Shown: piece after piece, positions 12,715 through 43,122 of the stretch
Layout: each line of letters begins with the position of its first letter
Position numbering within the stretch: position 1 is the stretch's first letter
Source: Mermis nigrescens
Taxonomy: Eukaryota; Nematoda; Enoplea; Mermithida; Mermithidae
Assembly: GCA_036768485.1 (NCBI GenBank)
Contig: JAVLUZ010000154.1
Span: 29,145,347 to 29,209,346, forward strand
DNA: 64,000 nucleotides
Direction: 5' to 3'
Translations under genes and position numbers: made by a program
Notes under the pieces: generated by a model
Told to the model about the DNA's origin: nothing
The model's input: only the letters and a program-made list of their open reading frames with translations
Databases searched by the model: none

Positions 12715-13830
12715 TCAAAGCTCACCTAAGTGGTCAAAAACTATTTGTGTGTAGTTAGATTCCAACTCTTTTTGATAAAAATTGCGAAAAGTACTAGAAT
12801 TACGGGTCCAATTCGCATGTTTTAAAATAGCAGCAACAGGTAAGCCTGATGCGAAAGCCTTAGAGGTAGAAGCTGATCGAGTGGAATGAGCTTTATACAT
12901 AGAAGTATCGATTCTGGCTAATTGTAGAGTTTTTAGAATCCACTTAGAAACCGTAGTCGTAGAAATGGAATGAAACGGTTTTTTTAGACTTATAAAAACT
13001 TTTGAGTTAGAGCCGCGACATTGTTTAGTGCGATCTATGTAATTCAACAATGAAATAAATGGGCATATATTTTCCACCGAAAACTTGAAAATTTTGATCA
13101 CGACGGCTCTATTAAAGCGACTGGTTTTTGTTGACTCGGAAATAATAAATTCTATGTAAGAATCAAATACTTTCATAGAATTAAGATCTAATTTTTGAAT
13201 TTCAGAAGCTCTCTGCGGACTAGAAAGCGCAATTAGAGTAACCGTCTTAAATGTAATCATGCGCCTATCTTTAAAGGATAAATCATGACCTGAGGGAAAC
13301 GCTATGCCGTTTAAAAATTTTAGTACAGTTTCAGTATTCCAAGTATGTACAGATCTAACAACTGGCGGACGTGCTCGCAAAACACCTTGCATAAAACGAT
13401 GAATTAAATCTGTGCAAGCAAATTTACAGCCATGCTCTGACAAAAATGTGACGATAGCTGATTTAGCTAAAGAAATTGTGCGATATGCATAGCCTAGTGA
13501 AAATAGTGATACTAAATAATTTATTATAATTTCTACAGTTGATTGAAGCGGATTGATGTTTTCTCGCAAACACCAGCTATGCCATTTTTGAATGGCTGAA
13601 TTGTAGTGCTTTTTGGTACCCGTGGACCATGACTCAAGCATGATGTCCGATGCTGCTTTCGAAATTCCTCTGCTAATCCAGGAATTCCCGAGACTTTCCA
13701 GACGGAAAGATGCAGAGTGCCGTTTATCACAAGAGGATGCGGCGCATCCAAATGATTCGTTAGTGTTTGAGCGCTGCTCTCTATCAAAAACGGAAATTGA
13801 ATCGTTTTTTCCAAAAGAATCGGCCACCAT
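12715..13830 (-). CDS. Tyrosine recombinase of DIRS element A
   Basis: 371-residue open frame. Integrates the circular double-stranded cDNA of the retroelement by site-specific strand exchange at short identical sites. The catalytic set of the DIRS recombinase family is visible: Arg207 in SPQRASEIQKL, His315 and Arg318 in AHSTRSA, His338 in AILKHANW, and the nucleophile Tyr352 in FRNFYQKEL. An N-terminal SAM-like DNA-binding region spans roughly residues 65-150. The frame overlaps the end of the RT/RNase H frame near 13533-13830, as usual in DIRS elements. The start at 13830 is the first Met in the open frame; the true start could differ. It is the only intact gene of element A. Confidence 0.85.
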   Translation of the reverse strand: MVADSFGKNDSISVFDREQRSNTNESFGCAASSCDKRHSASFRLESLGNSWISRGISKAASDIMLESWSTGTKKHYNSAIQKWHSWCLRENINPLQSTVEIIINYLVSLFSLGYAYRTISLAKSAIVTFLSEHGCKFACTDLIHRFMQGVLRARPPVVRSVHTWNTETVLKFLNGIAFPSGHDLSFKDRRMITFKTVTLIALSSPQRASEIQKLDLNSMKVFDSYIEFIISESTKTSRFNRAVVIKIFKFSVENICPFISLLNYIDRTKQCRGSNSKVFISLKKPFHSISTTTVSKWILKTLQLARIDTSMYKAHSTRSASTSKAFASGLPVAAILKHANWTRNSSTFRNFYQKELESNYTQIVFDHLGEL

Positions 13831-13832
13831 GG

Positions 13833-14909
13833 CTGAGTCGGCCAGACGGGCACCACTAAAATTAAATTAATTTTTTCGTCAACTATTTTACGTAAAACTT
13901 TTTCCAACAAGGTTAAAGGGAGGAAAAGCGTATGCACATTCTTTGAAAGCTTTCCAATTAATAGAGAAAGCGTCCGTAGCGATAGCTCCGGGATCTGGTC
14001 CCCAAGAGACGTAATTGAAAACTTGTGCATTTAGATGACTGGCAAAGAGATCCACAGAAATTGGTCCCCAGATTATGTTTATTCTTTCGAAAAGCGCAGA
14101 ACTCAGCATCCAGCTACTGAAATCTCTAAAATTTCTACTTTGCCAGTCGGCTTGAATGTTTTCTGTTCCTGCAACATGAAAAGCCTGCAGGGTGATTTTC
14201 TTGTCCAGACACCAAGTCCAAATTTTAATGGCCAGTTCGCATAAAAGCTTATTCCTCGTGCCCCTAGCTTATTAACATATGCTACCGCTGTTGAATTATC
14301 GAGCATAAGCTGAACAGACGTATTATATAGATCTTTCGCAAAAATTTTTAACGCGAAAAAAGTGGGATACAATTCCTTCAGATTAATATGAAAGAGGGAT
14401 TCGTGGGAGGTCCATTGGCCTCTGGCCGAGCCACCATTACAGTAAGCTCCCCAGCCCGAATTCGATGCGTCCGAATATATAATGAGGTTGCTGGCGGGTA
14501 GTAAAATATGTCTCCCATTCCAAGCATGCAGATGCGACAACCAAAGATTAATTTCGGCTTTGGCCTCCGGACTGAGTACAATATATTCATCATAATTATT
14601 GAACTTATTAAGGCCATCAATAAGGTTTGATTGTAAATGTCTCGTAAATAAACCTGATCGCAAAATGGCTTGATTTACCGAACAAAAGAGCCCGAGCACG
14701 GAAGCTAAATCGTGTAAGCGAACAAAGTTCGCAGCTTTTAGAACTCTGCACGTGTTAAGTATGCGTTTACACTTTTCATCTGCGATATAGAATTTCATTA
14801 CTTTTGAATCAATAATGAGGCCAAGATAAATGATTCTTTGCGTGCAGTCGAAAACCGATTTTTCTTGATTTATGAGAAAGCCCAAGTTCGAAAGAACATA
14901 TACTGCATG
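13833..14909 (-). pseudogene. RT C-terminus and RNase H of element A, frameshifted
   Basis: Continues the RT frame cut at 24941 by element P, resuming at an HAVYVLSNLGFL motif. RNase H residues are visible: Asp in IIYSDASNSGWGAYC, Glu in NLKELYPTFFAL and Asp in LMLDNSTAVAYV. Two or more frameshifts follow: one after KLGARG near 14260, one near 14100, and one near 13900, before the conserved tail with PTQPWWPIL at about 13800. The broken frames mean element A cannot now retrotranspose alone. Confidence 0.85.
14904..14909 (+). repeat. Target site duplication of element P, left
   Basis: TGCATG, matching 24942-24947. Removing P and one copy restores a continuous RT reading (DVKHA joined to VYVLS). 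Confidence 0.9.
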
Positions 14910-17167
14910 AGTAGTAGTTATACCTGGCTCCATAGGGTGCAATGATTAAGGATAGGCAATGGTTAAGCATAGGCAATTCTTTAAAATAGCCTTTGTTATA
15001 ACATAGGCTAATGCTATAACATATACAATGGTTAAGCATAAGCGAGGAGGCGGAGTCTTGCTCCCTGGGATAAGGGTCAGGGAGCAATGGTTAAGGATAG
15101 ACAATGGTTTAAGATAGGCAATGGTTAAGCATAGACTAACGCTATAACATATGAGGACATAGTTGAGGAGTGGAAGGGGTCAAAATTGGCAGGGTGCCAA
15201 CAAGATTAAACTAGGATTAAACTAAGACTAAGTGTAAACTAATTTTGAATGTAAACTAAGTGTAAAGTGAACCTAGCTGAACTAGGTGTAAACAAAGTCA
15301 ACCTGGGCCACCCCTTTTGCCTGCGGGTCCTCAGCGGGGGAGGGGGAAAGTCCCCCTAAAATGTAGCAGTGGGTCGCTCTTGCTACCACTGACACTCAGT
15401 CTAAAAATTGCCATAAATATGCCAAAGTATGGCAAAACTAAGCAGAAAGATTGTGTGCCAGGGGTCCGCTCTTGCTACCCCTGCCACTCAGTCTTAAATA
15501 TATCAAAAATGTGCCAAAGTAAGACAAAACTAAGCCCAAGGATTGGATGTGAGTGTAAAGTAAGCCTAGCTGCGCTAGGGATTAAAGTGGACCTATGCAC
15601 AAAAGGAGTGTGTATATATAGGTTTGACTTCCCGGTCCTTCGTCACTTCCCGGTCCTTCGAATTCCCGGTCCTTTGACTTCCCGGTCCTTGCTTGAGCCG
15701 CAGAAAATGGTACCATTATATAGAAAAGATAGGACAACTTTTTCACACAATTTGAGAATTTTAGTACATTTAAGCGTTTAACTTTCGATCAGCTGGTTTT
15801 TGTTAATAAAATAAATACAATAAATGATCACAATTCATTCAGCTTGCTTAAAAAATAGTCCATCTTTTATGTTATAACACGCCTACAGTGTGACACTCGG
15901 TCAAAGTTGATGAACCTGCTCACCATTGAATAACTCATTTCATTGAAGTGAGGTTTTTTGAGATGAATTCAAGAACCACTGAACGGATTTTGAAGAAATA
16001 AAGTGTTTTAGATATACAATCTTGGAATGAAACTATTTTGCCAAAAAGTATAGCTAGCCTATGTCTACAGTATGCTAGACTCGAAAAAGTGCTCAAACTT
16101 TGCTTAGTCACTACAGTAAGTTTCATATTTTGGAAAATAGCAAAATAGTTAAATATTTCAGTGCTCTAAATTTCACTCTTTTTTGTTTTTCGTGTTTCTG
16201 CATAGTTCGTCCTGCAATTTCAATTGAATTTTTTCCAATATGGCTGCCCCCATAAGGTGTGCATTTTACTCGCGCTATTTTTTCAGACTTTTTAATGTTT
16301 AAGCACATTTTAGAAAACCCCAAAAAAGCTCATTCGAATGATAGCCTATTTGTCTGATTTACTAAAGAATTCCACTTTTTCAATATGGCCGCCAGAAAGG
16401 CTATAATACTGTAGCTTTTGATGTTTTCAGCTATTATTCTGTGAGTTTCTGACATATTTCAAAAAATTCATTCAGTAAATAGCTAGAAAATTTAATGTTC
16501 TTAACGAGCTATGTCTCATGTTCTGAATCCTTCTCGTTCGTTTAAGAAAGTTCAAAAACCTCAAAATTATTCATTGTATTGTGAAAATGCCGTGCATTGC
16601 AAATAATGGACCAATTGAGCTAAAATCTTGGTTTTGGATTGAATCAAACATATGCTGTAGAGATTGTTGATTATGGGTCATGGTCGAGAAAATCTAGTAG
16701 TTTTACTGTTTTTCGCTAGTTTTACATCAAAATACACTGTTTTTGGCTCAAATAATTAAATGGTAGGTTCTGCATGTGTCTTGCAAAGGAGATCAACATC
16801 AACTTATATACCTACTGTACAACTGAATACATGAAGAAGAATAGCTCAAACTGATTCAGAATTTAACATACTGATCATACACCTTTTAACAAAGTGTGTA
16901 CTATTTGTAGAGCTGAGCACAAAGCAACTCACACTATTATGATTAGTTAGGTCTCCGAGGCTATTCTTCTATGCAGAGGAGTTTAACAAAACCTTTCATT
17001 TCAATACAATTAAGGCCTCTGAAACATAATTAAGATGTATTATCAACTTATCAACTTTACTTGGTTCAAGCACTTCTTTTTATTTGTGTAACTTAAAGTA
17101 AAGTGTGCACTTAATTCAGTTACATGTGAGCATTGAAAATGGCTCATAGGTTTTAGAACAATTAGAA

Positions 17168-17640
17168 AGAAAGTGTAGGCAAATTGAGCAGTTTAGAAAA
17201 AAGTGTGCAGAGTTTGGAAAAAAGTGTGCAGAGTTCGGAAAAAAGTGTGCAGAGTTTGGATAAAAGTGTGCAGACTTTGGAAAAAAGTGTGCAGAGTTTA
17301 GAAAAAAGTGTACAGAGTTTAGAAAAAAGTGTGCAGAGTTTCGAAAAAAGTATGCAGAGTTTCGGAAAAAGTGTGCAGAGTTTAGGAAAAAGTGTGCAGA
17401 GTTTGGAACATTTTTCATACGTTATAACATAGGAAGTGTGCAGAGTTTCGAAAAAAGTGTGCAGAGTTTCGAAAAAAGTGTGCAGAGTTTCGAAAAAAGT
17501 GTGCAGAGTTCCGAGAAAAGTGTGCAGAGCTTCGAAAAAAGTGTGCAGAGTTTGGAAAAAGTGTGCAGAGTTTAGAAAAAAGTGTGCAGAGTTTGGAAAA
17601 AGTGTGCAGAGTTTCGAAAAAGTGTGCATAGTTTGGAAAA
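17168..17640 (+). repeat. AGTGTGCAGAGTTTGGAAAAA minisatellite, left arm
   Basis: About twenty units of roughly 21 bp with variants (TTTCGAAAAA, TTTAGAAAAA). A single unrelated linker containing CGTTATAACATAGGAAG interrupts it near 17420-17437. Both strands read as open low-complexity frames, which are artefacts of a period divisible by three. Confidence 0.9.
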
Positions 17641-18164
17641 ATACCGAGAATATTAAATCATATTTTGGGGTTATTCAAAATGTCATTATCATCCAGCCAA
17701 CTATAGTATAATAGAGACATGTAGTTTAAGTGTGGTGGGCCTGAGTTCAGCACTTATTCAGGGCTAAGACCGACAGACGAGAATGATTTGGTCAAAAACA
17801 CTTTTTGCTTTGACATAGTTTTTAAATAGATTATACAGGTATATTAGACTTAACAATTTGATGCCATAGGCATGTCTTCAAGATAGAAACACAAGGATAA
17901 GCATTTAGTGTGGCCTACTTGGGTAGTGTGGCTGTAAAGTAATTAATCAGTCAGCCAATTTTCATAGAGATAGGTATTATTTGCATACATACTTGCTACA
18001 TAACTGTCCAGGCTGTTTGTTGGCTATAATATTCATTATTGCAACCCTTCATACATGTAGGAAAACAATGCATTTTCATGGACTAGAGACATAAAGATTA
18101 CAATACTGTTAGGTAGTCTTAAACAATATACTACGTACAGTAGGCAAAGTCTGTTGAATTTATA

Positions 18165-18540
18165 AGAGTGCTTGTAAAGTTTAGAACATTTTTGTAAAGT
18201 TTAGAACATTTTTGTAAAGTTTGGAACATTTTTTGTAAAGTTTGGAACATTTTTGTAAAGTTTGGAATATTTTTGTAAAGTTTGGAACATTTTTTGTAAA
18301 GTTTGGAACACATTTTACACGTTATAACATAGGAAGTTTGTAAAGTTTCGAACATTTTTTGTAAAGTTTGGAACATTTTTGTAAAGTTTGGAACATTTTT
18401 GTAAAGTTTGGAACATTTTTGTAAAGTTTGGAACATTTTTTGTAAAGTTTGGAACATTTTTTGTAAAGTTTGGAAAATTTTTGTAAAGTTTGGAACAAAG
18501 CTTGTAAAATTTGGAACAAAACTCGTAAGAGTCAGAAGAA
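18165..18540 (+). repeat. TGTAAAGTTTGGAACATTTT minisatellite, left arm
   Basis: About seventeen units of 20-21 bp. It has the same linker, ACGTTATAACATAGGAAG, near 18318. The downstream flank decays gradually into degenerate units near 18500-18540. Confidence 0.9.
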
Positions 18541-19257
18541 AGTTATATAAATGTTCAAATATCCGAATTCAGCCACAATTAAAGGGGTATATTGCATCCA
18601 AAAACCTTGTTTCTATTGCCTAAGTTAATAAGGCAAGTAAAGCATAATGTGTACACGCTGTTAAGCATCTGTACAGAAATTTGTATTTGTGACACTGTGT
18701 TATCTGTCTTATTGTTAGGTGTAAGCATGCTATTGCACAGTGTGCTTTAAATGTTGCTTGTTAATTGATAAAGAGCTAGTAGCCTAAGCACACAGAAATT
18801 TGGCAGAAATGTTCATATTGTATACACAATACTATTTAAAGTCCACACTTTATTGGAAAAGTGTGTGTTAAGCTCACTTGCATTGCTACATTAATTGAGC
18901 AATTTAGCCACAAGACAAAAATTCAGGCTGCATGCTTTTGTCTATATTGTAAAATTATCATCTCAGTACTGCAAATCCTGATATTTGAGACTATCAATTT
19001 AGAGTTTTGTCTATACAAAAGCTAATTTGCGCAGAAAAGTGCTATTCTATTAATTCAATTCTGGCATCTTTTAAAGCTTATTTCAACTTCATTTTATAGG
19101 TAAAAGCAGAAATGTACTACTTGGTGTCGCTGAAATCATCTAAGAGTGTTAGACCCTGAGGAAGGGGGATCCCCCACCCCTATAGGAACCTGTGCTTCTC
19201 CAGGTGCAGAAGGAGAGGGGAGTAGAGATGTGCTGGGCCGCCTTTTTAGCCGGGGTC

Positions 19258-20259
19258 ACAGGGACATAACACTTACCAAGGTATATCATACAGTATATGT
19301 GTACTGACTTAACATGCAATAAATACTGTTTCTCAATCATTGACTCATTTGGCACACGTAGCTGGTTTGTGTATTTTTATTGTCATTAATTGTACTGATG
19401 TACTAGGTGGTTACCATATTTACTGTAACTCAATAGGAAACTTGAGTGGGGCAAGTGGCTGTCATTCTTTCATTTGTAGAGCACTAAACCGTCCATATAA
19501 ATATAATTCAAACATACAGTGGCTGGGGGATACTATAGTAAGTGAGCTATGTACGTATTACTCAAAATTGAACTAATCTGGAAATCTTAGGATTCTAAAA
19601 AATAATGACATAAAAGGTTGATACTGCCCACATTCTATTCTTTGCTTGACTATTCACAATTTGGGGAACGCTTATTTAGATAAGAATTCTCATTTTCGGC
19701 AAAATCAACAGAAAGAAGCCAGAAATGACAATGCTGCTTTGGCAGTAGTATCCTAGCTCAACCCTTCTTGGCACAAATTCCAACCCTGACTTACACAAAG
19801 TGCCGCACCTTAAGACCAATACACAAGGCCTACATTTGGGAAGACATTTGCCAGCAACCTATAGCATGGTGAAGAGCATATAGGCATCAAAACGCTACAT
19901 GCAACATTAGTGAGGCAAAAAGAGAACAAAAGTCATTTGCCTAGAACATTATCAATATTAAAATAATATAAAAGCTATAATTAACATTAGTGAGCTACAT
20001 CGATCCTATTATCTGCTGCAAAGCACCCAGCATATACAACAATTTGTTATGCCCTAAAGTATGCATTGATTGTTAATACAGTATGCCCTCAAACATCTTT
20101 GTCCATTCAGCCAAATGTGATGCAAATGCTTTCAAAAATACGGTTTAATCTAATCATACATACAACAAACCACAACCATATTACCAATCTAGCTTACTTT
20201 TTGTAAATATGTTGCAAAATTTGATCAAAAGATTATATTATTTTTGTCGATTTTTTACA
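19258..20259. other. Unique spacer of element P
   Basis: About 1 kb between the arms, AT-rich, not self-complementary by eye. The 78-residue frame at 19340-19576 and others have no recognisable domain. If the element carries any gene or replication signal outside its arms, it must be here; I see none. Confidence 0.6.
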
Positions 20260-20984
20260 GACCCCGGCTAAAAAGGCGGCTCAGCACATCTCTACTCCCC
20301 TCTCCTTCTGCACCTGGAGAAGCACAGGTTCCTATAGGGGTGGGGGGATCCCCCTTCCTCAGGGTCTAACACTCTTAGATGATTTCAGCGACACCAAGTA
20401 GTACATTTCTGCTTTTACCTATAAAATGAAGTTGAAATAAGCTTTAAGAGATGCCAGAATTGAATTAATAGAATAACACTTTTCTGCGCAAATTAGCTTT
20501 TGTATAGACAAAACTCTAAATTGATGGTCTCAAATATCAGGATTTGCAGTACTGAGATGATAATTTTACAATATAGACAAAAGCATGCAGCCTGAATTTT
20601 TGTCTTGTGGCTAAATTGCTCAATTAATGTAGCAATGCAAGTGAGCTTAACACACACTTTTCCAATAAAGTGTGGAATTTAAATAGTATTGTGTATACAA
20701 TATGAGCATTTCTGCCAAATTTCTGTGTTCTTAGGCTACTAGCTCTTTATCAATTAACAAGCAACATTTAATGCACTCTGTGCAATAGCATGCTTACACC
20801 TAACAATAAGACAGATAACACAGTGTCACAAATACAAATTTCTGTACAGATGCTTAACAGCGTGTACACATTATGCTTTACTTGCCTTATTAACTTAGGC
20901 AATAGAAACAAGGTTTTTGGATGCAATATACCCCTTTAATTGTGGCTGAATTCGGATATTTGAACATTTATATAACTTTCTTCT

Positions 20985-21368
20985 GACTTTTACGAGTTTT
21001 GTTCCAAATTTTACAAGCTTTGTTCCAAACTTTACAAAAATTTTCCAAACTTTACAAAAAATGTTCCAAACTTTACAAAAAATGTTTCAAACTTTACAAA
21101 AATGTGCCAAGCTTTACAAAAATGTTCCAAACTTTACAAAAAATGTTCAAAACTTTACAAACTTCCATGTTATAACGTGTAAAATGTGTTCCAAACTTTA
21201 CAAAAAATGTTCCAAACTTTACAAAAATATTCCAAACTTTACAAAAATGTTCCAAACTTTACAAAAATGTTCCAAACTTTACAGAAAATGTTCCAAACTT
21301 TACAAAAAATGTTCCAAACTTTACAAAAATGTTCTAAACTTTACAAAAATGTTCTAAACTTTACAAGC
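20985..21368 (-). repeat. TGTAAAGTTTGGAACATTTT minisatellite, right arm
   Basis: Mirror of 18165-18540, with the linker present as CATGTTATAACGTG near 21167. Low-complexity frames on the plus strand are artefacts. Confidence 0.9.
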
Positions 21369-21896
21369 ACTCTTATAAATTCAACAGACTTTGCCTACTG
21401 TACGTAGTATATTGTTTAAGACTACCTAACAGTATTGTAATCATTATGTCTCTAGTCCATGAAAATGCATTGTTTTCCTACATGTATGAAGGGTTGCAAT
21501 AATGAATATTATAGCCAACAAACAGCCTGGACAGTTATGTAGCAAGTATGTATGCAAATAATACCTATCTCTATGAAAATTGGCTGACTGATTAATTACT
21601 TTACAGCCACACTACCCAACAAGGCCACACTAAATGCTTATTCTTGTGTTTCTATCTTGAAGACATGCCTATGGCATCAAATTGTTAAGTCTAATATACC
21701 TGTATAATCTATTTAAAAACTATGTCAAAGCAAAAAGTGTTTTTGACCAAATCATTCTCGTCTGTCGGTCTTAGCCCTGAATAAGTGCTGAACTCAGGCC
21801 CACCCACTTAAACTACATGTCTCTATTATACTATAGTTGGCTGGATGATAATGACATTTTGAATAACCCCAAAATATGTTTTAATATTCTCGGTAT

Positions 21897-22500
21897 TTTT
21901 CCAAACTCTGCAAACTTTTTCCGAAACTCTGCACACTTTTTTCCAAACTCTGCACACTTTTTCTAAACTCTGCACACTTTTTTCCAAACTCTGCACACTT
22001 TTTTCGAAGCTCTGCACACTTTTCTCGAAACTCTGCACACTTTTTTCGAAACTCTGCACACTTCCTATGTTATAACGTATGAAAAATGTTCCAAACTCTG
22101 CACACTTTTTTCTAAGCTCTGCACACTTTTTCCAAACTCTGCACACTTTTTTCTAAACTCTGCACACTTTTTTCCAAAGTCTGCACACTTTTATCCAAAC
22201 TCTGCACACTTTTTCCGAACTCTGCACACTTTTTTCCAAACTCTGCACACTTTTTTCGAAACTCTGCACACTTTTTTCGAAACTCTGCACACTTCCTATG
22301 TTATAACGTATGAAAAATGTTCCAAACTCTGCACACTTTTTTCTAAGCTCTGCACACTTTTTTCCAAACTCTGCACACTTTTTTCTAAACTCTGCACACT
22401 TTTTTCCAAAGTCTGCACACTTTTATCCAAACTCTGCACACTTTTTTCCGAAGTCTGCACATTTTTTCCAAACTCTGCACATGTTTTTCTAAAGTGCTCA
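21897..22500 (-). repeat. AGTGTGCAGAGTTTGGAAAAA minisatellite, right arm, expanded
   Basis: Mirror of 17168-17640, about 130 bp longer. The linker CCTATGTTATAACGTATG occurs twice (near 22065 and 22296) against once in the left arm, showing a block duplication of about 230 bp in this arm only. Confidence 0.9.
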
Positions 22501-23154
22501 ATTTGCCTACACTTTCTTTCTAATTGTTCTAAAACCTATGAGCCATTTTCAATGCTCACATGTAATTGAATTAAGTGCACACTTTACTTTAAGTTACACA
22601 AATAAAAAAGAAGTGCTTGAACCAAGTAAAGTTGATAAGTTGATAATACATCTTAATTATGTTTCTGAGGCCTTAATTGTATTGAAATGAAAGGTTTTGT
22701 TAAACTCCTCTGCATAGAAGAATAGCCTCGGAGACCTAACTAATCATAATAGTGTGAGTTGCTTTGTGCTCAGCTCAATAGTACACACTTTGTTAAAAGG
22801 TGTATGATCAGTATGTTAAATTCTGAATCAGTTTGAGCTATTCTTCTTCATGTATTCAGTTTGTACAGTAGGTATATAAGTTGATGTTGATCTCCTTTGC
22901 AAGACACATGCAGAACCTACCATTGTAGTTATTTGAGCCAAAAACAGTGTATTTTGATGTAAAACTAGCGAAAAACAGTAAAACTACTAGATTTTCTCGA
23001 CCATGACCCATAATCAACAATCTCTACAGCATATGTTTGATTCAATCCAAAACCAAGATTTTAGCTCAATTGGTCCATTATTTGCAATGCATGGCATTTT
23101 CACAATACAATGAATAATTTTGAGGTTTTTGAACTTTCTTAAATGAACGAGAAA

Positions 23155-23317
23155 CAGGCACGTAGCTGGCCCTCTTATTTTGGGGGGACCAACACCAATT
23201 TTGGGGGGGTCTAAGCCAAAAATAGCACAAAATAGCGTGTAAAAAGTCCTGTTTTTCCGGTTTTTTCAGAATTTTGGGGGGTCCGGACCCCCCAGTCCCC
23301 CCACAGCTACGTGCCTG
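23155..23317. mobile_element. hAT-like MITE inside right arm of element P
   Basis: 163 bp with ends CAGGCACGTAGCTG and its inverse. Flanked by 8-bp ACGAGAAA (23147-23154) and ACGAGAAG (23318-23325), a hAT-length duplication. The left arm of P has the uninterrupted site. A second copy is at 42957-43122. No coding capacity. Confidence 0.85.
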
Positions 23318-24941
23318 ACGAGAAGGATTCAGAACATGAGACATAGCTCGTTAAGAACATTAAATTTTCTAGCTATTTACTGAATGAATTTTTTGAAATA
23401 TGTCAGAAACTCACAGAATAATAGCTGAAAACATTAAAAGCTACAGTATTATAGCCTTTCTGGCGGCCATATTGAAAAAGTGGAATTCTTTACTAAATCA
23501 GACAAATAGGCTATCATTCGATTGAGCTTTTTTGGGGTTTTCTAAAATGTGCTTAAACATTAAAAAGTCTGAAAAAATAGCGCGAGTAAAATGCACACCT
23601 TATGGGGGCAGCCATATTGGAAAAAAATTCAATTGAAATTGCAGGACGAACTATGCAGAAACACGAAAAACAAAAAGAGTGAAATTTAGAGCACTGAAAT
23701 ATCTAACTATTTTGCTATTTTCCAAAATATGAAACTTACTGTAGTGACTAAGCAAAGTTTGAGCACTTTTTCGAGTCTAGCATACTGTAGACATAGGCTA
23801 GCTATACTTTTTGGCAAAATAGTTTCATTCCAAGATTGTATATCTAAAACACTTTATTTCTTCAAAATCCGTTCAGTGGTTCTTGAATTCATCTCAAAAA
23901 ACCTCACTTCAATGAAATGAGTTATTCAATGGTGAGCAGGTTCATCAACTTTGACCGAGTGTCACACTGTAGGCGTGTTATAACATAAAAGATGGACTAT
24001 TTTTTAAGCAAGCTGAGTGAATTGTGATCATTTATTGTATTTATTTTATTAACAAAAACCAGCTGATCGAAAGTTAAACGCTTAAATGTACTAAAATTCT
24101 CAAATTGTGTGAAAAAGTTGTCCTATCTTTTCTATATAATGGTACCATTTTCTGCGGCTCAAGCAAGGACCGGGAAGTCAAAGGACCGGGAATTCGAAGG
24201 ACCGGGAAGTGACGAAGGACCGGGAAGTCAAACCTATATATACACACTCCTTTTGTGCATAGGTCCACTTTAATCCCTAGCGCAGCTAGGCTTACTTTAC
24301 ACTCACATCCAATCCTTGGGCTTAGTTTTGTCTTAGTTTGGCACATTTTTGATATATTTAAGACTGAGTGGCAGGGGTAGCAAGAGCGGACCCCTGGCAC
24401 ACAATCTTTCTGCTTAGTTTTGCCATACTTTGGCATATTTATGGCAATTTTTAGACTGAGTGTCAGTGGTAGCAAGAGCGACCCACTGCTACATTTTAGG
24501 GGGACTTTCCCCTCCCCCGCTGAGGACCCGCAGGCAAAAGGGGTGGCCCAGGTTGACTTTGTTTACACCTAGTTCAGCTAGGTTCACTTTACACTTAGTT
24601 TACATTCACAATTAGTTTACACTTAGTCTTAGTTTAATCCTAGTTTAATCTTGTTGGCACCCTGCCAATTTTGACCCCTTCCACTCCTCAACTATGTCCT
24701 CATATGTTATAGCGTTAGTCTATGCTTAACCATTGCCTATCTTAAACCATTGTCTATCCTTAACCATTGCTCCCTGACCCTTATCCCAGGGAGCAAGACT
24801 CCGCCTCCTCGCCTATGCTTAACCATTGTATATGTTATAGCATCAGCCTATTTTATAACATAGGCTATTTTAAAGAATTGCCTATGCTTAACCATTGCCT
24901 ATCCTTAATCATTGCACCCTAGGGGGCCAGGTATAACTACT

Positions 24942-24947
24942 TGCATG
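24942..24947 (+). repeat. Target site duplication of element P, right
   Basis: TGCATG, the partner of 14904-14909. Confidence 0.9.
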
Positions 24948-25520
24948 CTTTACATCGCTTTTTAGCGCATTGTATGATGAATTGATGATGAGTATATCAT
25001 CGAGATAAATAATAAGACGCATGCCGATTTTCCGTAAAATAGAAACAACAGGTTTTAGAACCTTCGTGAAAACGCGAGGAGCACTAGAAAGGCCAAACGG
25101 CAAATACGTAAACTTAAAAATTCTCCCCTCAAACTGGAAGCAAAGATAATTCTGATGACTTGAATCAACAGGCAACAAGAAATACGCATCTTTTAGATCT
25201 AATTTAGCCATAAAATCATTAGGCCGTAAAAGACCTTTAAGCATATGTATGCCTTCCATTTTGAAGTGCTCATATTTCAAAGACCTCTTTAGGTCTTTCA
25301 GATTTATAACAGGGCGCTAATCGCCACCTTTTTTGGGCACAAAAAAAAGTCGTGAAAGCCAGAGAACCGAAGAAATATGGTCAATTTCTACAATGGCCCT
25401 TTTGTTTAAAAGCCCTTGAATTTCAGATTTTATGATTTCCCTACGTTTTTCGGAAAAAATAAGCTTTTTCGGTGGAGAGAGCTGAGGGCTAGGAAAATAT
25501 TCAAAAGGCAATTTATAGCC
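24948..25520 (-). pseudogene. RT N-terminal and palm region of element A
   Basis: Reverse transcriptase of the DIRS type. Visible motifs: LSRLFFVPKKGG, then KLDLKDAYFLLPV, YLPFGLSSAPRVF and the catalytic YLDD in IIYLDDILI. The frame is broken at the stop between 25317 and 25280, and then cut at 24947 by element P. It continues at 14909 on the other side of P. Confidence 0.85.
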
Positions 25521-33893: not shown

Positions 33894-34449
33894 GTAATTT
33901 ATAGTTTTTGCAACGACTATAAGAGTGAACTGAGGAGCCTGGATGGGGCTGAAAATTCAAAAAAAAATCGTAAAAAGGTCAAAACTTAAATTCTTAGGGT
34001 CTACCATAATTTGCGTGGGGGTATTTCAGAATCTCAGGGTAATCATCTACTATATATTTTTGAAAGTTTGTTTGTTTGTATGTATGTTCGTATGTTTGTG
34101 CCGGGTTGGCTCCGGCCCAATGAAATTTGGAGGGCTGATATTTTGGGCCGAGGTCGGTCCAATGAGGGAAGGAGCCGTAGCGATCTTGAAATTTCGACAA
34201 ACGCACCCATTGGCCCTGGGCAGGGACGGAGCAGGGTTTGGCCCCTGTGCTATAAGCCTCCACGATTTCGGGAGATGGCCGATTTTTTGCTATTTTTTTT
34301 CAAAAATTAGTTTATACTGTTTGTATAGGGATACCCCGGCCAAGAGGAGCATGCCTGGCGACACTATGTACATTTTTATATGTTATAGCATTGATCGGCA
34401 CTGTAAAACATCAAAATACGGGTTTAACCAAATGATGCTATAACATAGG

Positions 34450-34830
34450 CAATTTTATAAGATAGGCGTGGTATGAGATACTATGTGCAACAAGATAAGC
34501 AATGCTATAAGATAGGACGTGATATAAGATACTCTGTTCTACAGGATAGGCAATACTATAAGATAGGACGTGATATAAGACACCCCATGCTACAAGATAG
34601 GAAATGCTATAAGATAGAACGTTATAAAAGATACCCCGTGCCACAAGATAAGCAATGCTATAAGATAGGAAGTGATATAAGATACCCCGAGCTGCAAGAT
34701 AGGCAATGTTATAAGATAGTATGGGATATAAGATACCCTGTGCTACGAGATAGACAATGCTATAAGATAGGTTTGGTATAGATACCCTGTCTGTGCCACA
34801 ACATGCAGTGATATAAGATAGGAGATACCA
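34450..34830 (+). repeat. 51-bp tandem array inside Helitron
   Basis: About seven units, period 51 bp, each with GCTATAAGATAGG and GATATAAGATAC. Motifs resemble the terminal GCTATAACATAGGC sequences of element P. Confidence 0.8.
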
Positions 34831-34869
34831 TCAGCTGTAACATATCACGTGATATATGACACCCTTTGC

Positions 34870-35290
34870 TACAACAAACAAAAAATTTTTAAAACATCAA
34901 AAATATGGTTTGACCGAAAAAAATTTTTAAAACATCCTAAAACAGCAAAAATATAGTTTGACGAAAAAAAATTTTCCAAAACATCACAAAACATCAAAAA
35001 TATGGGTTTGATTAAAAAAATTTTCCAAAACATCCTAAAACATCAAAAATATGGTTTGACGAAAAAAATTTTCCAAAACATCCCAAAACATCAACAATAT
35101 GGGTTTTATTAAAAAAATTTCCAGAACACCCCAGAACATCAAAAATATGATTATGGCTAAACAATTTTCAAAACCATTCTATAACGTCAAAAATATGGAT
35201 TTGATCAAAAAAATGGTTGACAAAAGACATTTTAAAAAAATCCAAAAAATAAAATATGGTTTGTACAAACAATTTTTTTAGAAATATCCC
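34870..35290 (+). repeat. ~50-bp tandem array inside Helitron
   Basis: Diverged units containing AAAACATCAAAAATATGGTT and runs of A and T. Adjacent to, and distinct from, the 51-bp array. Confidence 0.75.
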
Positions 35291-36134
35291 AAAAACATCA
35301 AAAGTCTTGAAAAATAAAAAATACAAGAGACATATTAATTCCATATAGCTATCAGGCCTAACTTCAGCCCGGGCAACGCCGGGCAGCTCAACTAGTCCTA
35401 CTATAAAACTCATTGAATGCGCACAACTCCGGTAAAAATTGTGCTAGTTTGTCAAGTGATATGATTCAGAAATTGTGCCTTTTTCACGTGAAAGATTGAA
35501 CCGATTAAGATTTAAGAAACTAACAGTTCATATCATCAGCATAACTTATTGGTGACGCAGCCATTTTGGCCAAAATCCTTTTAGAATTTCAAACGACATT
35601 CCGTTTTCTAGTAGCGTATTGTCTTTGCGTGAGACATGTGATTGCGAAATATTTTCAAAAAAATGTTTTTTGGACAAGTGTATGAAAAGGCGCAAATTCG
35701 GATAATCTAAAAACTCACAGTTGTGTGGTTCGTTCCAAGCTTTCAAATTCATGCAATAGAGCAGTTATTATTCACAAGCTGTCTGTCGGGCTTAGTTCTC
35801 TTTTTCTACTGTCTTAAGCCGTATTTTTGTTTAAAATTAATCAATTTAAGATGTCTAGAAAATAGCATGAGAGATAAGTCGTGGGGTTAACTAGTCAGCT
35901 GAAAATACCTAGAAACTTTTAGCTGGACTCTGGATTAGATTATTACAGGAAAAATTAAGGTTTTGTTCTGATCGTAATTTTTACCACCACTGTTCTAAGT
36001 GTGCGCTGGATAGCCTCGTTATATACAGATATGGTTTTCTGTTAGATGAAAACATGGGGGAAAAATCTGAAAACGGGTAATAAAAATGAAAATTATTTGT
36101 TGGAAAAATTAGTATTTATTAAAAAAATAGGTAG

Positions 36135-38478: not shown

Positions 38479-39894
38479 AGTAGTATATAGGGGGGTCGCA
38501 AGCGTTTTTCGCAGGGCCGCTCTATCCTTAAGCATTACAGGTTGACCGCCCCCGCATTTTTTGCAGGGCCGCTGGCCCGAAGGTCCGCCTTTGGCTACTT
38601 TCGGGAAAAGAAAAAAGTATGGGTCACTGGGGGCCGAACGGCAATCAAAGCGAACTACAGTCTGACGCATAACCACATGCCATGAGCGTAGCTACGTGGA
38701 GGCACTTGAGGCACGTGCCTACCCTAGAAAAATTTCGAATTATGTTTGGCCACAACTTTACTGACTATGAACTATTACAACTTTGTGTTCTGTTACTGTA
38801 GGTGTTAACATTGTCTTAGAGTTGTTGCCTCGCCTGTCTTGCTTGGCGGCGTCGATTCTTTTCTTGTAGTGCTGTATCACCATGAAACGCCAGGCGATTT
38901 TGTTTGATTTTTTAATCAGCCTGTTAGAGCCAGGCATGCCTCCTCAGAGTCTAGCTCAAGTAATCCACCATATTCGATAAATGGCGATGAGAATGAAACG
39001 ATTGCTATAGCGGTGGTGTTCATGCCTCAGATCATAGGCGTAGCCATGATTTTTGCAAGGGGGAATCCAAAAAGAATTTTTCCGTCTGAAAACTCATAAA
39101 ATGGACCAGACCTCTAAATAACGTGTTTCCAGGGCTTTTCAAATCCTCCTGCACTATTTATGCAATCGAAAAATTAATTTTTTCATTTAAATTTTTTACG
39201 TTTTTGACGGAAAAAATGTTTATTATGCGCTGGAAGCAGTGTTTTTTGTACCAGGTTCGTTTGTACGTGTATGTACAAAGATGGTCCCCAAAAGCAGGGG
39301 CGTAGCCAGGGGGAAGGGGGAATTTCCCCGGGGAAAATTTCGAATTTTTATAAATGGAGCTATACGGTTGCGTAACGCTGTCCTGCGACGATATTGTTGT
39401 GAATAAACCATAAATTCGGCGCTTCGCGCCGATTTATTTTAGTTTTCACCATTATTTTAACTTAATGGCAACAAACAAGAGAGAGACAAAACAAGAAAAT
39501 ATCTATGGTTTAGAAAAATACAGTAAATTTGGTAAAACATAAATACATGATAAAAGAGTGACAGAACAAAAGGACATACAGATCACGGAGTGTGATACAA
39601 GTAGGTATGCTTCAACAATAAAATTGTAAAATCAATATTTAGCAGCTCTTTTTTGAACGAACCAACGTTAGGAGAAGCGACGACATGATCAGGTAACTTG
39701 TTCCAAATTTTTGAATATCTTTAGGAAAAGTTATTGAAGTGAGCATATTTGCAACGGACAACTGCTAAAGTAAGTTGATAAGGAAAACCGTTGATAATTT
39801 GATACAGAAGACATAGACATATGTAAAGATAAAGAAAATAAAATATAAAAAATATAATAACAAAGAATAAAGCGTTTGTCGCCAGGGTGTGGGT
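38479..39894. other. Unassigned sequence with repeat ends
   Basis: Starts with GC-richer DNA (38479-38690) not seen elsewhere in the window. GCGTAGCC-type hAT-like termini occur near 39010 and 39295 (CAGGGGCGTAGCCAGG), and a GGCGCTTCGCGCC hairpin at 39418. No paired ends, and no gene recognised. Confidence 0.45.
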
Positions 39895-40690
39895 AAAATC
39901 CGGAAACGGAAACGGAAACGGAAACAATGGGTAAAAGCCGGAAACGAAAACGGAAACGGAAACGGAAACAACGGGTAACAACCGGAAACGGAAACGGAAA
40001 CAATGGGTAAAGGCCGGTACCGGAAATGTAAACGGACCAAAGTGGCGGAACCGGGGTTTTCCAAGTAGGACCCATCAGGGTCAACACCCCCAGCCCCGTT
40101 TCTGCCAAATTTTCTCCAACTGAAGGGGGGTTTAGGGGCTCGGAAACGGGTTACCCCATTATTCGTATGCGAAGGTGACCCCGGTTCCGTCAGGGATTTC
40201 TCCGCCCTGGGGGCGGTCCAAAGTGGCGAAACCGGGGTTCCCCAAGTAGGGCCCATCAGGGTCAACGCCCCCAACCCCGTTTGCGCCAAAATTTCTCCAA
40301 GTGAAGGGGGTTTGGGGGCTCGGAAACGGGGTACTCCATTATTCATATGTGAATCTGACCCCGGTTCCGTTGCGCTACTTTTGAGCGCCCTTAGGGCGGA
40401 GAAACCCCCGACGGAAACGGGGTCACCTTCGCATATGATTAATGGGGCACCCCGTTTTCGAGCCCCTAAAGCCCCTTCAGTTGGAGAAATTTTGGCAGAA
40501 ACGGGGCTGGGGGTGTTGACCCTGATGGGCCCTGCTTGGAAAACCCCGATTCCACCACTTTGGTTCGTTTCCGTTTCCGGTTCTGGCTTTTACCCATTGT
40601 TTCCGTTTCCGGCTTTTACCCGTTGTTTCCGATTCCGTTTCCGGCTTTTACCCATTGTTTCCGTTTCCGTTTCCGGATTTTACTTTTCCC
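39895..40690. repeat. Inverted repeat with GGAAAC-tandem ends
   Basis: Left arm about 39895-40190, right arm about 40390-40690. Outer parts are runs of (C)GGAAA(C) hexamers broken by GGGTAA; inner parts share the CCCATCAGGGTCAACACCCC stretch and its complement. A second direct copy of that segment sits in the middle (40200-40330). GC-rich against its surroundings. Long open frames are artefacts of the hexamer. Probably a foldback transposon of unknown class. Confidence 0.7.
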
Positions 40691-42956: not shown

Positions 42957-43122
42957 CAGGCACGTAGCTGGCCGTCCTATTTTGGAGGGACTAACATCAA
43001 TTTTGGGGGACCAAGCCCATAAAGGCCAAAAATAGCACAAAAATGTTCAAAAGGTCCTATTTTTCCGATTCTTCTGAATTTTGGGGGATCCGGACCGGAC
43101 TCCCCCCAGAGCTACGTGCCTG
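42957..43122. mobile_element. hAT-like MITE, second copy
   Basis: 166 bp with the same ends as 23155-23317 (CAGGCACGTAGCTGG and inverse). Flanked by CCAATCCC and CTAATCCC, 7 of 8 matching. No transposase. Confidence 0.82.

Follow-up and report, generated by a model that had tools for sequence, protein, structure and literature searches.

The stretch of DNA analysed here (the window) is 64,000 nucleotides long and covers positions 29,145,347-29,209,346 of contig JAVLUZ010000154.1 in the Mermis nigrescens (Nematoda) assembly GCA_036768485.1, which totals 524 Mb and consists of 860 contigs. It contains a giant foldback element of 10,032 bp at 14910-24941, with element positions counted from the first letter of the window, and this agrees base for base with the element described in an initial annotation. 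Two long inverted arms, with inner limits set by eye, surround a central loop and make up almost the entire element (Table 1). As that annotation had stated, the arms are 4.35 and 4.68 kb long, the ends start with AG and differ in their AGT repeats (three copies at one end, two at the other) and no recognisable gene is present. The three copies are those of the left end, where TATACC follows them. The TGCATG duplication that flanks the element is exactly 6 bp, because the adjoining bases differ.

Table 1 Features of the foldback element and of its insertion site in the window.
Feature	Position	Strand	Remarks
Target, downstream part, DIRS-type element	12715..14903	-	Phage_integrase 6.6e-08; weak RNase H match 0.0088
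Target duplication, left copy	14904..14909	+	TGCATG
Left arm	14910..19256	+	4,347 bp; begins AGTAGTAGTTATACC; inner limit by eye
Outer 280 bp, 17-bp sub-repeats	14910..15189	+	~89-94% identical to ends of gene-bearing Polinton-type elements
Second block, common with inverted repeats of gene-bearing elements	15506..15690	+	holds 16-bp GACTTCCCGGTCCTTC repeats
21-bp minisatellite, left arm	17190..17641	+	
20-bp minisatellite, left arm	18172..18518	+	
Central loop	19257..20259	.	~1 kb; without Pfam domain
Right arm	20260..24941	-	4,682 bp; reverse complement begins AGTAGTTATACC; inner limit by eye
20-bp minisatellite, right arm	21000..21366	-	
21-bp minisatellite, right arm	21896..22493	-	longer than the left-arm array
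163-bp miniature inverted-repeat transposable element (MITE), right arm only	23155..23317	.	flanked by ACGAGAAA/ACGAGAAG (7/8); limits by eye
Second shared block, right-arm counterpart	24165..24349	-	
Outer block, right end	24665..24941	-	
Target duplication, right copy	24942..24947	+	TGCATG
Target, upstream part, interrupted DIRS-type element: reverse transcriptase	24948..25316	-	RVT_1 2.3e-13

The foldback is a real and precise insertion that splits a reverse transcriptase frame. When the flanks are fused with a single TGCATG, one open frame of 391 residues spans the junction. The interrupted target is assigned by us to a putative DIRS-type element, based on its reverse transcriptase and tyrosine recombinase; the recombinase lies further out in the left flank than the RNase H match, which is weak and under the family cut-off. 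The palindrome is beyond chance because the fused flanks restore the frame and because the terminus pattern described below is found at 202 places, versus 2 for the reversed pattern. Searches of the window for tRNA genes and for Rfam families were both without a match.

An assembly artefact, in which the palindrome would be a chimera of long reads, is extremely improbable. The arms of the window element differ at 1.06% of ~3.2 kb of non-repeat positions, in minisatellite copy number and in the MITE, which is confined to the right arm and therefore arrived later than the arms. The flanks show a duplication and no inversion, and among seven foldbacks both the flanks and the 6-bp duplications differ from copy to copy. 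What would accord with an artefact is that two copies (C93 and C137; C-numbers are our own handles) have flanks that are perfectly inverted where read and may themselves be artefacts, and that the window locus is doubled ~424 kb away (C61 28736500-28746528). The second copy is identical to the window over 3.2 kb at each end, of which 1.5 kb is flank, and is perhaps the product of a segmental duplication or a retained haplotype. A palindrome arising by chance or artefact was rejected on the restored frame, the arm differences and the separate insertion sites.

Forty-nine open reading frames of at least 60 residues overlap the foldback, and the Pfam scan covered 10 of these. Eight were blank, one had a weak match under the cut-off and the tenth, which crosses a 20-bp minisatellite, matches 78 families; among the 25 families listed for it only FRB_dom is over its cut-off (26.9 versus 24.7 bits), a match that is taken as spurious. 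In five foldbacks the longest arm frames (142-200 residues) exceed the mean maxima of single-base shuffles (101-108, with highest maxima of 119-207). By position, on our own reckoning, all five overlap the 21-bp minisatellite, in which repetition lengthens frames. Within the limit of the 10 frames scanned, the arms are taken as non-coding. Neither a polymerase B gene nor a retroviral-type DDE integrase gene was seen in the foldback itself.

The element is a member of a family in this genome. With its outer 201 bp as a probe 582 candidates were obtained, and the 40 scored are 87-100% identical. The terminus pattern AGTAGTTATRCSTGG occurs at 202 places genome-wide (101 + 101), its reversed form at 2 (1 + 1). 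Among the 100 termini listed of the 202, neighbours less than 30 kb apart form 22 inward-facing and 3 same-strand pairs and no outward-facing pair. An 801-bp loop probe gave 44 matches (40 of 1,130 candidates scored), which are 82-96% identical where full-length and 100% in the duplicated locus. These correspond to 38 places, six of the matches being second pieces of the same places and some duplicated loci being included, and at 21 of the 38 a terminus faces the loop at 3.85-5.54 kb. The counts of facing termini, for loops and for the integrases discussed below, used 100 of the 202 termini and 24 places from the outer-end probe.

Copies C174, C68, C267 and C194b were read through, as were C7 and C61c, which contain nested insertions; all have the arms in common and all but C7 also the loop. 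In eight loop-bearing copies the ends lie 9,212-10,032 bp apart; the window element, C174, C68, C267 and C194b were read through, and C51a, C108 and C166 are included by end positions and loop. Longer copies are C7 (16.1 kb) and C61c (26.2 kb), with their nested insertions, and C120b (25.8 kb), which was not read. The insertion in an arm of C61c includes a diverged Polinton-type element, and the C194b foldback starts ~0.1 kb from the genes of another such element, inside which it perhaps lies. The loops of C68 and C267 are reversed relative to the window. Flipping of the loop was considered and dropped, since with symmetric arms a reversed loop is the same as the whole element inserted the opposite way. 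In the viral and bacterial collections, a 15-base terminus pattern is found at 72 viral-contig loci and a 19-base sub-repeat at one genome locus, about as expected by chance on a rough estimate, and the element has no match at E 0.01 to any of these 73 loci.

Duplication length and AGT number were tabulated over the copies, as the initial annotation had proposed. Exact 6-bp duplications are present in 17 of the 26 copies with both ends read, including all seven foldbacks in the first set read, where the flanks and duplications are all different. Nine of the 17 belong to this first set and seven to a second, and the remaining one is C51b. No duplication of another length was found in the 26 copies, bar a 4-bp value for C137 from its palindromic flank. 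AGT is present in two copies at 48 of 52 ends, the exceptions being the left ends of the window element (three) and C51b (four) and both ends of C93 (three and three). The left end in question (C51 21612972-21613051, L114) reads CACATT and then (ATT)3(AGT)4, and a CACATT duplication emerges for C51b when this (ATT)3(AGT)4 end is counted as element; the expansion is of a kind that slide-back could make. The tally leaves out C192 (flanks as in C194b) and the C61 28.74 Mb copy (flanks as in the window), which are also absent from the arm comparison below, together with C120a2 (an alternative pairing) and C187, C389, C61b, C68b and C479 (both ends not fully read).

The same end blocks flank elements that carry genes. 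The outer block is present in C48, C596 and C335 (both ends read) and in C479 (one end, contig end). In C48 and C596 it is ~89-94% identical to that of the foldback and lies inside inverted repeats of ~1.0-1.1 kb, and the second shared block is 92-95% identical over ~186 bp in C596 and 89% over 141 bp in C48. C596 encodes an integrase (rve, 1e-11, 45.4 bits versus a cut-off of 32.6), an adenovirus-type protease (Peptidase_C5, 22.1 versus 21.3 bits) and a Pox_A32-type ATPase (25.5 versus 22.8 bits). In C48 and C596 an array similar to the 21-bp minisatellite is located just upstream of the ATPase gene. Relatives of the C596 gene set are encoded by C48 and C335, and its virion-type part by C479 in the stretch read. 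The C48 capsid protein has no Pfam match of its own; seven of the 120 listed among its 1,311 homologues bear a double-jelly-roll family label, and two of the labelled homologues reached 24-25 bits on rescanning, under the cut-off of 27. In PHROGs the integrase has transposase matches and the ATPase one weak match, and the capsid, the protease and one further protein have none; for the integrase there is also one PDB match, at 2.3e-06, to a sequence that bears the name Integrase. C596 is 9,770 bp long, C335 10,600 bp and C48 15,667 bp, the last holding a ~4.8-kb stretch that is absent from C596.

The initial annotation had suggested a search for these ends around integrase and polymerase B genes. 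The first association was found, with a matching terminus facing 10 of 29 integrase loci at 2.6-3.1 kb (the 29 being those with at least 74% identity among 150 matches, with two on C818 left out), and the second was not, as no full-length polymerase B was found within such ends.

According to PMC8097293, vertebrate Mavericks have 5'-(AGT)2//(ACT)2-3' ends and 6-bp duplications, and their end repeats are tied to jumping-back in protein-primed replication. The foldback has the same type of ends and the same duplication length, as the initial annotation had recognised, and in this genome such ends enclose genes for integrase, ATPase, protease and capsid. We read it as a giant non-autonomous Polinton/Maverick-type derivative in which two very long arms and a 1-kb loop hold no recognisable gene, and give this reading a probability of roughly 0.85. 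We class it as a derivative that bears Polinton-type ends and do not count it as a Polinton proper, since it lacks the defining genes, polymerase B included. The shared ends and the 6-bp duplications support the annotation's proposal of a giant relative consisting almost wholly of terminal repeat, and its alternative, a new foldback class using similar chemistry, is not needed, since the same ends flank integrase- and capsid-bearing elements. Intact vertebrate Mavericks differ in having terminal repeats of 46-1,447 bp, in contrast to arms of over 4 kb, and a length of 12.7-24.6 kb, in contrast to ~9.2-10.0 kb, as given in PMC8097293. Among the open-access papers listed, none deals, by title and the start of its abstract, with a non-autonomous or foldback Polinton.

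In architecture the element also resembles Drosophila Foldback, Galileo and Tetris and the sea-urchin TU elements, which have very long arms, internal tandem repeats and a small loop, and abstracts on Galileo and Tetris describe long arms with internal minisatellites and a unique loop. It is nevertheless very improbable that the foldback belongs to such a class of ordinary cut-and-paste transposon and has converged on 6-bp duplications and AG ends. The class of helper, the duplication length and the terminal motif all differ. Only the rve integrase was matched as a transposase, with no P-type enzyme and no other class among the ten open reading frames of C596 and C48 scanned with Pfam, and the P superfamily, exemplified by Galileo, makes target duplications of 7-8 bp. 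The ends shared with the integrase- and capsid-bearing elements have largely refuted this alternative already, and through them the other transposon classes were rejected on duplication length and ends. Another duplication length, or another transposase on the same ends, was what the annotation had named as evidence against its own proposal, and neither was found in the 26 copies or the ten frames, respectively.

Like a MITE, the foldback is gene-less and keeps the ends needed by a helper enzyme, but it is ten kilobases long and not hundreds of bases, and the helper family is virus-like. Defective adenovirus genomes, which have duplicated ends and panhandle strands, offer a further parallel in the proposed protein-primed making and keeping of two identical ends; they differ in that the foldback is integrated in the chromosome, apparently by an integrase, and that its arms are almost the whole element.

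The two arms of one copy are homogenised relative to other copies. Over the non-repeat arm positions of seven foldbacks the arms of a copy differ by 0.2-4.3%, compared with a mean of 6.2% between copies (1.0-11.6%, 84 comparisons). An arm's own mate is its nearest relative for 13 of 14 arms, and none of 20,000 random pairings is equally tight. In segment-wise comparisons, which retained C192 without setting it against C194b and excluded high-scoring segment pairs covering less than 60% of a segment, the mate was nearest in 18/24, 15/24, 8/8, 7/14 and 10/12 cases (incomplete arms); for seven copies the comparison above makes good the missing parts. From this likeness of mates, the molecule that gives rise to an insertion seems to have arms that are nearly identical.

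The outer ends behave differently from the rest of the arm. Foldbacks differ by a mean of 11.0% at positions 10-280 and by 4.0% in the 1.4 kb beyond position 800. The nearest relative of a foldback end is the end of a gene-bearing element in 6 of 14 cases and that of another foldback in 8, with C187, where only a PolB-N-like gene was seen, counted as gene-bearing. Both ends of the window element are nearest to gene-bearing elements (4.7% from C187 and 5.5% from C48), and its arms group with other foldbacks at ~4%. This pattern fits recombination of foldback ends with those of gene-bearing elements; the foldback ends would then serve the same enzymes.

As part of the reading as a Polinton-type derivative, we infer that a Polinton-type DDE integrase, supplied in trans, recognises the AGTAGT ends and inserts a linear form of the foldback. 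This form is probably replicated by a protein-primed route in which the AGT repeats permit slide-back. In the displaced strand the complementary arms would pair to give a panhandle whose duplex stem is the full arm, and copying or mismatch repair in the panhandle would yield identical arms before each insertion, after which the arms would drift apart. It is also conceivable, although rather unlikely, that chromosomal gene conversion or unequal exchange keeps the arms alike, with a plain DNA intermediate and no protein-primed replication. Gene conversion is known between inverted repeats, and the minisatellites of the two arms do differ in copy number. Differences between copies are largely matched at both ends up to AGTAGT, and the changes in triplet number (three AGT in the window element, four in C51b) fit slide-back; conversion is still compatible with both.

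The sizes bear on a further possibility, that the foldback is a satellite genome, replicated and packaged in trans in Polinton-type capsids, with the capsid setting its size. The 9,212-10,032 bp of the eight loop-bearing copies are close to C596 and C335, the elements with the same ends carry capsid, protease and ATPase genes, and PMC8097293 argues for a size constraint in Mavericks. The longer loop- or arm-bearing copies (C7, C61c and C120b) make the size group partly our own selection, and just two gene-bearing copies free of large insertions were read over their full length. We regard such trans-packaging as unlikely, a speculative lead from a small and partly selected sample. The fullest version of the idea, a gene-less satellite of virus-like Polintons that is linear, protein-primed and hairpin-prone, borrows polymerase, integrase and capsid and has its arms rewritten from each other in each cycle, is distinctly doubtful as a whole.

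The elements with these ends contain only a PolB-N-like frame, typically of 264-275 residues, and in a search for it (150 of 1,779 candidates scored) the longest open frame among the matches listed has 349 residues. The frame is called N-terminal-like because it matches, at 29%, a frame that precedes a PF03175 match in C389; Pfam assigns it no family. Intact polymerase B frames (PF03175) of up to 1,380 residues lie elsewhere in the genome, where 168 stretches match this family (80 of 1,062 candidates scored). As no full polymerase B was found with these ends, the polymerase would come from another element or the lineage would replicate otherwise. The gene-bearing 10-kb elements are themselves possibly polymerase-less and dependent on third elements, which would make a two-step chain of parasites. 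The PolB-N-like frame may be a conserved gene in its own right, since roughly 100 of the loci listed have an open relative of it with 55-60% identity. In C726, C326, C814, C590 and others it is found in outward-facing inverted pairs ~4-9 kb apart, as though a related and abundant subfamily carried it in its long inverted repeats.

Several observations weigh against the reading as a Polinton-type derivative with arms homogenised during replication. Nine of the 26 two-ended copies are without an exact 6-bp duplication: C45 and C64 match at 5/6, the flanks of C596, C108, C120b, C137 and C93 are inverted, not duplicated, and those of C87 and C142 are neither. The minisatellite excepted, neither the loop nor the middle and inner parts of the arms have a match in the gene-bearing elements compared, and none of the elements seen with such ends has a complete polymerase B. 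The left arm of C61c is closer to C174 (1.0%) than to its mate (2.0%), in short segments alone mates are nearest less often (the 15/24 and 7/14 above), and chromosomal gene conversion could also be the cause of arm homogeneity.

The flanks of these copies have features of their own. In C596, C108 and C120b an inverted CAGATAGCCT-type extension is present on both sides beyond AGTAGT, and the extensions of C596 and C108 look like the inner portion of the terminal repeat. In C87 the left side has the extension and the right side a shortened form of it; in C142 it is confined to the right, and in C68b it is present on the single side that was read. The extension is of the CAGCAGATAGCCT type, with GGACCGGGAAGTC repeats where more was read and no target duplication, and could be a head-to-head fusion of elements or an extended end. 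C93 is a 118-bp pair of termini and C137 is 24.9 kb long; their perfectly inverted flanks (240/240 bp read in C137) are palindromes of the assembly or, alternatively, inverted duplications that the element seeded.

If the reading as a Polinton-type derivative is true, end blocks a few hundred bases long suffice for the recognition of Polinton ends, and a virus-like transposon can sustain large gene-less passengers, as class II transposons sustain MITEs. The terminal repeats of a presumed protein-primed element could then reach nearly the whole element and yet stay alike, and one organism would bear on both the presumed linear, protein-primed replication of Polintons and the possible packaging of DNA in their capsids. 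If the satellite genome is real, the divergence of the arms would date each insertion, as the divergence of long terminal repeats does for a retrotransposon. The 26 two-ended copies and 202 termini are natural end variants for mapping what the integrase and polymerase need. Inverted repeats this large, as in Galileo, are expected hot spots for chromosomal inversion.

Some smaller features were seen within the element and elsewhere in the window. GTTATAACATAGG, from the terminal sub-repeats, lies at 14995, 17421 and 18321 (+) and at 22064 and 22295 (-). It recurs within the 21-bp and the 20-bp minisatellite of the left arm, a single time in each, and at two places in the 21-bp array of the right arm. 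Judged by translation, the array just ahead of the C48 ATPase gene seems to hold a like interruption, and the recurring motif is possibly a protein-binding site. The 163-bp MITE of the right arm, which we take to be hAT-like, has a second copy at 42957-43122. At 34435-35395 a tandem 17/51-bp array (ATGCTATAAGATAGGCA...) is followed by a 48-bp array and then by a GCCCGGGCAACGCCGGGC hairpin and CTAGT, an arrangement like the 3' end of a Helitron. The array holds TATAACATAGG of the foldback sub-repeats, so the two types of element may share a satellite motif. Minisatellite arrays of the GGAAACGGAAAC type at 39890-40036 and 40567-40683, on opposite strands and ~0.5 kb apart, are a possible further inverted-repeat element.

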